In this document: one piece after another, positions 58,560 to 60,750 of the stretch
Layout: each line of letters opens with the position of its first letter
Numbering within the stretch: the first letter of the stretch is position 1
Assembly (NCBI GenBank): GCA_021324815.1
Contig: JAJPIJ010000013.1
Location: 1-64,000 of the forward strand
Origin: Gammaproteobacteria bacterium
Lineage (GTDB): Bacteria > Pseudomonadota > Gammaproteobacteria > JAJPIJ01
Length of the DNA: 64,000 nucleotides
Direction of reading: 5' to 3'
Notes under the pieces: generated by a model
Databases searched by the model: none
Told to the model about the DNA's origin: nothing
Seen by the model: only the letters and a program-made list of their open reading frames with translations
Position numbers and translations under genes: made by a program

Positions 58560-60140
58560 TCAAAAATACAATTCGTACTCCAATTCGAACTTGAATGCCC
58601 CGGACGGCGCCGCGTCGGTGGCGCCCAGCAGATAGCCGACGTTGTAGAGCAGCTTGCCGGTGCCGAGCCGGAACGCGCCGCGGATGTCCGGTCCGATCTG
58701 ATGGACCTGTTCCGACAGGTTGTCGGCGGCGTCGATGCGGCCGATCTCGCCGAACGCCTCGAAACCGGGCTCCAGCTCGGGGCGCAGGCGGTAGCGCGTG
58801 GCCCAGGCATATTCGAACCGGACGCCGTGCTCGTCGCCGCCGATCGGCCGGACGAAAATCGGATTCGCGGTGAATAGCCAACGCCCCAGCGTCTTTTCGA
58901 GCAGCAGCTTGCCCTCCAGTTCATGCGCGTCCGCGGCCTTCAGGCCCTTTTCATATTCAAGATAAACCGCCGCATCGAGCCAGTACTGTCCCGGTTCGGT
59001 CAGCATCAGGATGTTCTCCCAGGCCGCGGCATCCAGCCTGAGATTGTTGTTCTTTCCCTGCTCATGTTCCTGGGACTGTTCCAGCAACGCGGCGGTGTAC
59101 CAGCGCGCGGTCGGCGTATAGCTGATTTCGTAAATGAATGTCTTGTTGCCGTCGATTTCCCTGTTTTTATCCATGCTGGTGATGCCGCGCGTCTCCAGTT
59201 CGAGTTCGCCCTGCACCACATAGGGGGAATACACCTTGAATTCCGCCCGCGCCTCGCGAACGGGGGCCAGAATCAGAACCATTGCGACGATGGCGGTGAC
59301 GGTTCCCAGTGCCGTCGCGGCGGAGTTGGATTTCCGCGAGGATCGGTTCGCCGCCCATGCCAGGCCCGCCAGCAGCGTCAATGTGACCGAATAAAACACG
59401 AGTTGCATGCCCGTCGGCGTGGCGGTGTAACCCACCAATGCATGCAACACCCGGCCGGCAATGCTGCGATCCGGGATCAGCCAGTTCGAATTCCATATGG
59501 CGTGACCGAAAGACGGCAGATAGCCGGCCTGCGACAGGAAAACCGCCGCTTGTGACGACATGCCGGCCGCCAGCAGGATGAGCAGAACATTGGTCACCCG
59601 GAAAAGATGACGCGCCGGGATGCGGCCGATGCCAAAATACAGGGCGGCGCCCATGGCCGTCCCGCCGATGAGGCCGAGTACGCCGCCGGTCCACAGATCG
59701 GCGACGCCCGCACTGCCGGCGGTGAGCAGACCGTAGATGAACAAAATGACCTCGGAACCCTCGCGCAGCACGGCGAGCATCACAATGGCCGCCAGTACAT
59801 AGGGTTCCTTCTCGCCGGCGGCGACCTCCGCGCCCACGCGCTTGATGTCGCGGGCCATCGTCCTCCCCTGCCGGCTCATCCAGATTGAATGCCATCCGAG
59901 CATGGCCGCCGCCAGGAGCAGCACGACGCTGTTGAACAACTCCTGCCCCATGCCCGCGGCCATCTGCGAAATCCGCGAGGTCAGGGCGGCGATCACGGCG
60001 GCGCCGACGACGCCGGACGCCAGCCCCCAGAACACCCAGCGATGACGACCCGCCAGGCCGCGGGCGCCGACCAGCACCAGCCCCACGACCAGCGCCGCCT
60101 CCAATACCTCGCGAAATACGATGATGGCGATGGTCAGCAT
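58560..60140 (-). CDS. FTR1-type iron permease fused to a C-terminal beta-barrel-like domain
   Basis: A 526-residue fusion. Residues 1-262 form a seven-span FTR1/EfeU permease with the iron motifs R10-E-V-L-E14 (a variant of REGLE) and R126-E-G-S-E130. Residues 266-299 look like a second signal peptide, with basic SSRKSN, a hydrophobic core and AREARA. Residues 300-526 are strand-rich and end ELEYELYF with terminal Phe, like an outer-membrane barrel. Signal-peptidase cleavage after residue 299 would release two proteins. It follows the cupredoxin gene by 34 bases, behind a Fur-type promoter. Confidence 0.85.
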   Translation of the reverse strand: MLTIAIIVFREVLEAALVVGLVLVGARGLAGRHRWVFWGLASGVVGAAVIAALTSRISQMAAGMGQELFNSVVLLLAAAMLGWHSIWMSRQGRTMARDIKRVGAEVAAGEKEPYVLAAIVMLAVLREGSEVILFIYGLLTAGSAGVADLWTGGVLGLIGGTAMGAALYFGIGRIPARHLFRVTNVLLILLAAGMSSQAAVFLSQAGYLPSFGHAIWNSNWLIPDRSIAGRVLHALVGYTATPTGMQLVFYSVTLTLLAGLAWAANRSSRKSNSAATALGTVTAIVAMVLILAPVREARAEFKVYSPYVVQGELELETRGITSMDKNREIDGNKTFIYEISYTPTARWYTAALLEQSQEHEQGKNNNLRLDAAAWENILMLTEPGQYWLDAAVYLEYEKGLKAADAHELEGKLLLEKTLGRWLFTANPIFVRPIGGDEHGVRFEYAWATRYRLRPELEPGFEAFGEIGRIDAADNLSEQVHQIGPDIRGAFRLGTGKLLYNVGYLLGATDAAPSGAFKFELEYELYF

Positions 60141-60174: not shown

Positions 60175-60543
60175 TCATTCGACTGTCAATACACCCTGCG
60201 CCGAGTCCTGATGGAAGTCGCCGAAATAAGGGTAGGACCCGGGAGGCAGTGGACCGACGAACACGACGATCTCCGAATTGGCGGGCACCACCTTCTCCCT
60301 GTTCAATTCATAGCTCTCGAATTCCTCCGGCGTCGGATCCTCGTTTCTGACGACGAGCTTCACCTTCGTGCCGCTGGGCACCCTCAGATTGGCCGGCTCG
60401 AACTTGTGCCCCCTGATGGTCAGCGCAAACGTGGAATCATCCGCAAGGGAAACAGTGGGCAGACACGGCGCCATCATTCCGCCCAATAACAATCCTGCCC
60501 ACAGGGGGGTGAAGCGCCGCCTGTTCAATGGATGTATTTCCAT
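60175..60543 (-). CDS. Periplasmic cupredoxin-domain protein of the iron-uptake operon
   Basis: A 122-residue exported protein. The N-terminal NRRRFTPLWAGLLLGG resembles a twin-arginine signal. The mature part is a cupredoxin-like beta domain: FALTIRGHKFEP, LRVPSGTKVKLVVRNEDPTPEEFESYEL and PGSYPYFGDFHQDSAQGVLTVE. Such proteins partner FTR1 permeases as periplasmic iron or copper carriers. ATG 60543 is chosen because the promoter and Fur box lie directly upstream, and longer in-frame readings would run through them. Confidence 0.85.
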   Translation of the reverse strand: MEIHPLNRRRFTPLWAGLLLGGMMAPCLPTVSLADDSTFALTIRGHKFEPANLRVPSGTKVKLVVRNEDPTPEEFESYELNREKVVPANSEIVVFVGPLPPGSYPYFGDFHQDSAQGVLTVE

Positions 60544-60581
60544 GAATTTGTGCAACTGTGACAAAGGCCGATATTTGTAAA

Positions 60582-60614
60582 TGAGAATTATATTCATTAA
60601 TATTAAACAGTCAA
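60582..60614 (-). promoter_or_regulatory. Sigma70 promoter with Fur-box overlap (iron operon)
   Basis: On the minus strand TTGACT (60609-60614) and a perfect TATAAT (60587-60592) are 16 bp apart. Overlapping the -10 is TGAGAATTATATTCA (60582-60596), which fits the 15-base Fur 7-1-7 consensus at about 12 positions. Iron-bound Fur would block RNA polymerase there. The leader to ATG 60543 would be about 37 bases. Confidence 0.8.
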
Positions 60615-60750
60615 ACAAAAAATAACTTGTTGTTTTTAAAGTGAATCATATGTTCGATGTTATATAAGTCAGGTGAACGATGCGTCATTGATGGCGCTGC
60701 ATCTGGCGCGGTCCTTCAGTCCGCCGGGCCGCCTCGCGGAAACCCTGAAA

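Follow-up and report, generated by a model that had tools for sequence, protein, structure and literature searches.

A probable polyprotein that joins an FTR1-type permease to an outer-membrane-like beta-barrel recurs in Pseudomonadota

A single gene in the 64,000-nucleotide stretch of DNA that we analysed (the window) encodes an FTR1 permease, an internal signal peptide (predicted), and a 12-strand beta-barrel, in that order (58560..60140, minus strand, 526 amino acids). We propose, with a probability of roughly 0.8, that this precursor is cut by signal peptidase I to give an inner-membrane permease and an acidic-lumen channel of the outer membrane, which would act together in the uptake of ferrous iron. 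On this view, both proteins are probably synthesised as a single chain, which the cell then cuts in two. The proposal is built on computed features (the single frame, both folds, the signal-peptide features, the recurrence of the fusion, the operon partners, and a Fur-like site), and from these we infer the cleavage, the outer-membrane location, and iron as the channel's substrate. To use one chain for two different membranes is a very unusual way to build such parts.

The frame runs from ATG to stop through 526 codons. A first-pass annotation of this DNA had claimed that one uninterrupted frame joins an FTR1 permease to a strand-rich domain, and indeed no frameshift or stop separates the two. 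The permease domain (residues 1-262, 59355..60140, minus strand) belongs to the FTR1 family: Pfam FTR1 (PF03239) covers residues 1-278 (E = 1.2e-32, 113.8 bits against a cut-off of 25.3), and the Pfam profile search of the 526-residue protein found no further family beyond this match. Against the NCBIfam EfeU equivalog (NF041756), the protein scored 131.8 and so fell short of the cut-off (255). It has both RExxE motifs, REVLE (residues 10-14, 60099..60113, minus strand) and REGSE (residues 126-130, 59751..59765, minus strand), and R10, E11, E14, R126, E127, and E130 are invariant in a 20-sequence alignment of fused relatives. Our full-length model consists of a helical permease, then a helix of low confidence (274-290), and then the barrel; its permease helices lie at residues 2-25, 32-60, 66-107, 114-140, 146-171, 176-204, and 244-267. 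So the seven spans that the annotation had given the permease are borne out, with the refinement that the core of the signal peptide forms an eighth hydrophobic helix (the low-confidence one). (The same genome has a second, distant FTR1-family gene, C15:82280-82912, with 29% identity and without a barrel match.)

The predicted internal signal peptide occupies residues 266-299 (59244..59345, minus strand) and has a basic n-region (RSSRK), a hydrophobic core, and REARA at its end. Residues 265-299 read NRSSRKSNS, then AATALGTVTAIVAMVLILAPV, then REARA, and EF follows. This linker has three K/R residues and no D/E, and the mean hydropathy of the core is 3.1. EfeU-type permeases are taken to be N-out/C-in with seven spans, so the next hydrophobic stretch would run from the cytoplasm to the periplasm, which is the orientation of a signal peptide. 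The predicted cleavage site, A299|E300 (flanking codons 59241..59246, minus strand), follows the (-3,-1) rule and is at a conserved position. In all 23 of the fused proteins that we found, [AVSTGLIC]xA occurs 2-4 residues ahead of the motif that opens the barrel (VYSP in the window and [VI]YSP in most fused proteins), as compared to a background of 22% per site in the same 23 proteins; this count is specific to the position (a search within 10 residues is uninformative, with a background of 50%), the (-3,-1) background is high in alanine-rich proteins, and the 23 sequences are related and represent about nine distinct lineages on our tree. The other signal-peptide features recur as well: the 23 linkers have 1-7 K/R and 0-1 D/E residues, and the hydrophobic core always starts 17-23 residues ahead of the site. 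The length and sequence of the linker vary. An A-x-A-type site that is actually used should survive this much divergence, whereas its survival would be unexpected for a stretch that is only an anchor. Signal-peptide features thus lie between two parts of a single frame, as in a polyprotein.

The C-terminal domain (residues 300-526, 58560..59243, minus strand) is predicted to be a beta-barrel. The AlphaFold2 model, which was built on an alignment of 11 relatives, has twelve strands and negligible helices (mean pLDDT 91.3, pTM 0.84). The even number of strands, their amphipathic alternation (hydrophobic residues towards the lipid and polar residues towards the lumen), and the aromatic C-terminus (LYF) are all typical of outer-membrane beta-barrels. 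When the model was compared to the PDB with Foldseek, the top match was FapF (TM up to 0.76), followed by OmpG, KdgM, and a COG4313 channel among others, and nearly all of the matches listed were outer-membrane barrels (the exceptions were artificial metalloproteins). By sequence, the barrel has no match in Pfam, NCBIfam, or the PDB that is both significant and consistent, so the family appears to be uncatalogued in these libraries. In particular, the Phenol_MetA_deg profile (PF13557) does not match any of 11 members of the family at E <= 1.

The presumed lumen of the barrel has about 19 acidic and 9 basic residues, and eight acidic lumen positions are strongly conserved (312, 314, 316, 375, 389, 395, 461, and 523). 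(We assigned the lumen face as the more polar side, so the contrast in hydropathy is partly by construction, but the acidic excess and the conservation are not.) In the model, such a lumen is what one would expect in a cation channel. Charged lumens are common among porins, so the acidity alone is no proof of selectivity for iron.

The first-pass annotation had also described a signal-peptide-like stretch with the cleavage site AREARA|EF and an outer-membrane-like barrel that ends in phenylalanine. The first agrees with the A-x-A-type site in every fused protein and the second with the confident 12-strand model, whose sequence ends in -ELYF. As checks, it had named a barrel prediction, which gave the 12 strands and no sign of the soluble fold that was the alternative, and a search for homologues, which found the two parts as separate genes, with the barrel gene then having a signal peptide of its own. 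The computational tests that it named support its core reading (one chain that contains a permease, an internal signal peptide, and an outer-membrane-like barrel).

An alternative explanation is that the chain stays uncut: the hydrophobic stretch would be one more transmembrane helix, the eighth, and would tether the barrel-like domain to the inner membrane, where that domain would act on the periplasmic side of the permease. The helix at 274-290 would suit this explanation, albeit at low confidence, and some permeases do have C-terminal periplasmic domains. However, we consider an uncut chain unlikely, given the A-x-A-type site at a fixed place in 23 of 23 proteins, the hydrophobic lipid-facing residues of the strands, and the split relatives, in which this domain is a separate protein exported by a signal peptide of its own. 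Also, a linker of about 12 residues cannot span to the outer membrane. Only about 12-20 residues lie between the hydrophobic stretch and the first strand, too few to bridge the periplasm, so a barrel in the outer membrane would have to be cleaved from the permease.

Another possibility is that the barrel is also made alone, from an internal start, and that the fused chain is a mere by-product. An in-frame start does precede the hydrophobic core in 16 of the 23 fused genes (for example, L070, with MKAAPKKAAT...). This seems quite improbable because the window and six others have no such start, the positions of the candidate starts are not conserved, and no Shine-Dalgarno-like sequence was seen ahead of most of them. 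For the window, codons 255-286 contain no in-frame ATG, GTG, or TTG, and therefore a barrel with a signal peptide could not arise from an ordinary internal start; on this ground, we rejected internal initiation there.

The fusion is real and is not due to chance or to an error of assembly, because 22 other fused genes from our searches in Pseudomonadota have the same architecture and because split relatives keep both parts, nearly always in the same order. That an artefact of sequencing or assembly joined two genes is scarcely credible: although several relatives are metagenome-assembled and split forms with short overlaps occur (L056 and L067), the parts are joined without a stop or frameshift, and the other 22 genes include 11 members of one family. 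The aligned fused relatives are 36-52% identical to the window's protein. (Long frames alone can mislead as to fusion. A 530-codon barrel frame, L067:532-2124 in genome G263, looked fused, but FTR1 is in another frame, so the pair is split and the long frame is spurious. Similarly, L056, with a frame of 548, is split and not fused.)

In our searches of whole genomes and genome contigs, the barrel turned up in 49 of the 369 genomes sampled from the class and in 56 of the 398 from the phylum (E <= 1e-5, a threshold at which the weakest matches may be other barrels). Three layouts predominate. In the first, which accounts for most of the 24 split loci in our tree set, cupredoxin, FTR1, and barrel are three successive genes, and the barrel gene opens with its own signal peptide. 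In the second, the cupredoxin gene is followed by the FTR1-barrel fusion (23 genes, including the window's). In the third, the cupredoxin gene is followed by the barrel gene and FTR1 is not adjacent. One locus has the order cupredoxin, barrel, FTR1 (L079 in G704). Among the loci without FTR1, the cupredoxin-barrel pair lies upstream of a same-strand NRAMP transporter in G010 (L096:3434-6954) and beside a divergent FeoB gene in G641 (L099:6749-10094; the barrel there is a distant relative, with a weak match to PF13557), a sign that the module may work with more than one kind of inner-membrane permease. At L097 and L098, no metal transporter was recognised next to the pair.

We also noticed other copies of the barrel. 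Eight (L077, L081, L086-L088, L090, L091, and L094) have signal peptides and no cupredoxin or FTR1 detected in the DNA examined; they are from family f207, which is also rich in fused genes, and they could be paralogues. A search of plasmids found no full-length fusion. On the Hydrogenophaga plasmid pPBL-H3_B2-1, the barrel gene (L036:6766-7515), which follows a cupredoxin gene and FTR1, is broken into two annotated hypothetical proteins.

In a maximum-likelihood tree of FTR1 and barrel from 47 loci (24 of them split), the fused state needs three changes, and at least two of these are forced by well supported branches (gains and losses are not distinguishable). A single fused clade is rejected (p-AU = 6.7e-115, 47 loci), which means two or more changes of architecture. 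Independence is clearest for the fused gene of G150, which is sister to the split pair of G261 from the same family. The genes of G261 overlap by four bases (ATGA), and the fusion junction in G150 is clean.

The gene upstream of the fusion, and the first in the operon, encodes a periplasmic cupredoxin (60175..60543, minus strand; Cupredoxin_1, PF13473, E = 1e-27), and a cupredoxin gene precedes the FTR1 or fused gene in nearly all of the relatives. The listed open reading frame extends to a TTG at 60618, but the start is probably the ATG at 60543, because a Fur-box-like site, ATTAATGAATATAATTCTC (60583..60601, minus strand), falls inside the extension (60544-60618). This site matches the consensus at 14 of 19 positions, and none of 100 shuffles was as good. 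Sites in fused relatives match at up to 18 of 19, and several of the relatives examined have none. As a sequence motif, the site fits iron control. We found no genes for EfeO, EfeB, P19-type FtrA, or FtrD adjacent to the fusion, only the cupredoxin gene. The downstream neighbor is a convergent glycosyltransferase gene and the other neighbor is an EAL response regulator.

If our proposal is correct, then a Fur-regulated operon for ferrous-iron uptake (cupredoxin, then FTR1-barrel) would yield a single precursor for two membrane proteins. The FTR1 part would insert into the inner membrane and leave its C-terminus on the cytoplasmic side. Together, the basic linker and the hydrophobic stretch would then act as an internal signal peptide by which the remainder of the chain is exported through that membrane, and signal peptidase I would cut after AREARA (A299). 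In the outer membrane, the released domain would fold to form an acidic-lumen channel of 12 strands and would admit ferrous iron (or another cation) to the periplasm, where the cupredoxin would either oxidise the iron or pass it to the FTR1 permease. The likely route of iron would be from barrel to cupredoxin to FTR1. The first-pass annotation had gone further and suggested that iron import across the two membranes is coupled one to one, which is unsupported: co-translation alone is supported, and it implies equal synthesis rather than coupled transport.

More broadly, it is somewhat probable that polyproteins of this kind recur naturally in Gram-negative bacteria, with a single chain for the transporter of the inner membrane and its channel in the outer one, which signal peptidase I would release at the internal signal peptide, so that the two envelope components of one uptake route would be produced in equal amounts; and that the channel represents a new acidic-lumen 12-strand family that pairs with cupredoxins and, in other genomes, neighbors FeoB or NRAMP rather than FTR1. 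The usual assumption is that ferrous iron enters via general porins, and to our knowledge, FTR1-type systems have been described without a dedicated outer-membrane partner. A barrel that is encoded with the permease, and repeatedly fused to it, would be such a partner. It would also follow that outer-membrane assembly can be supplied through an internal signal peptide that follows a polytopic protein, and the fusion offers a natural, testable case of one chain split between two membranes.

How does this compare to known systems? The permease part resembles EfeU/Ftr1 (FTR1 family, PF03239) in its seven helices, both RExxE motifs, its cupredoxin partner, and its Fur-like control. The EfeU/Ftr1 members that we know of end after the permease; in contrast, the window's protein continues, and its score falls short of the EfeU model (131.8 < 255). 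The pairing of an FTR1 permease with a periplasmic cupredoxin is shared with the ferrous-iron uptake systems FtrABCD (PMC11966278) and EfeUOB, but the window's operon lacks an adjacent EfeB peroxidase, EfeO M75 domain, FtrA, or FtrD and has instead a dedicated outer-membrane-like barrel. The barrel has the fold of the COG4313/Phenol_MetA_deg (PF13557) and FapF 12-strand channels (Foldseek TM of 0.68-0.76), yet it matches no Pfam or NCBIfam model and its operon is different.

The closest parallel for the splitting is the FbcH polyprotein of Bradyrhizobium, in which cytochrome b and cytochrome c1 are parted at an internal signal peptide. There, too, a membrane protein and an exported protein share one chain with an internal signal peptide between them, but the products of FbcH share one inner-membrane complex, whereas here the second product is a barrel of the outer-membrane type. 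In the literature that we searched, there was nothing relevant on FTR1-barrel operons or on bacterial polyproteins that contain internal signal peptides. So, the FTR1 membership of the permease, the fold of the barrel, and splitting at an internal signal peptide (as in FbcH) were already known; we found no description in the literature searched of one precursor that combines an inner-membrane permease with a barrel of the outer-membrane type, an arrangement that recurs in Pseudomonadota.
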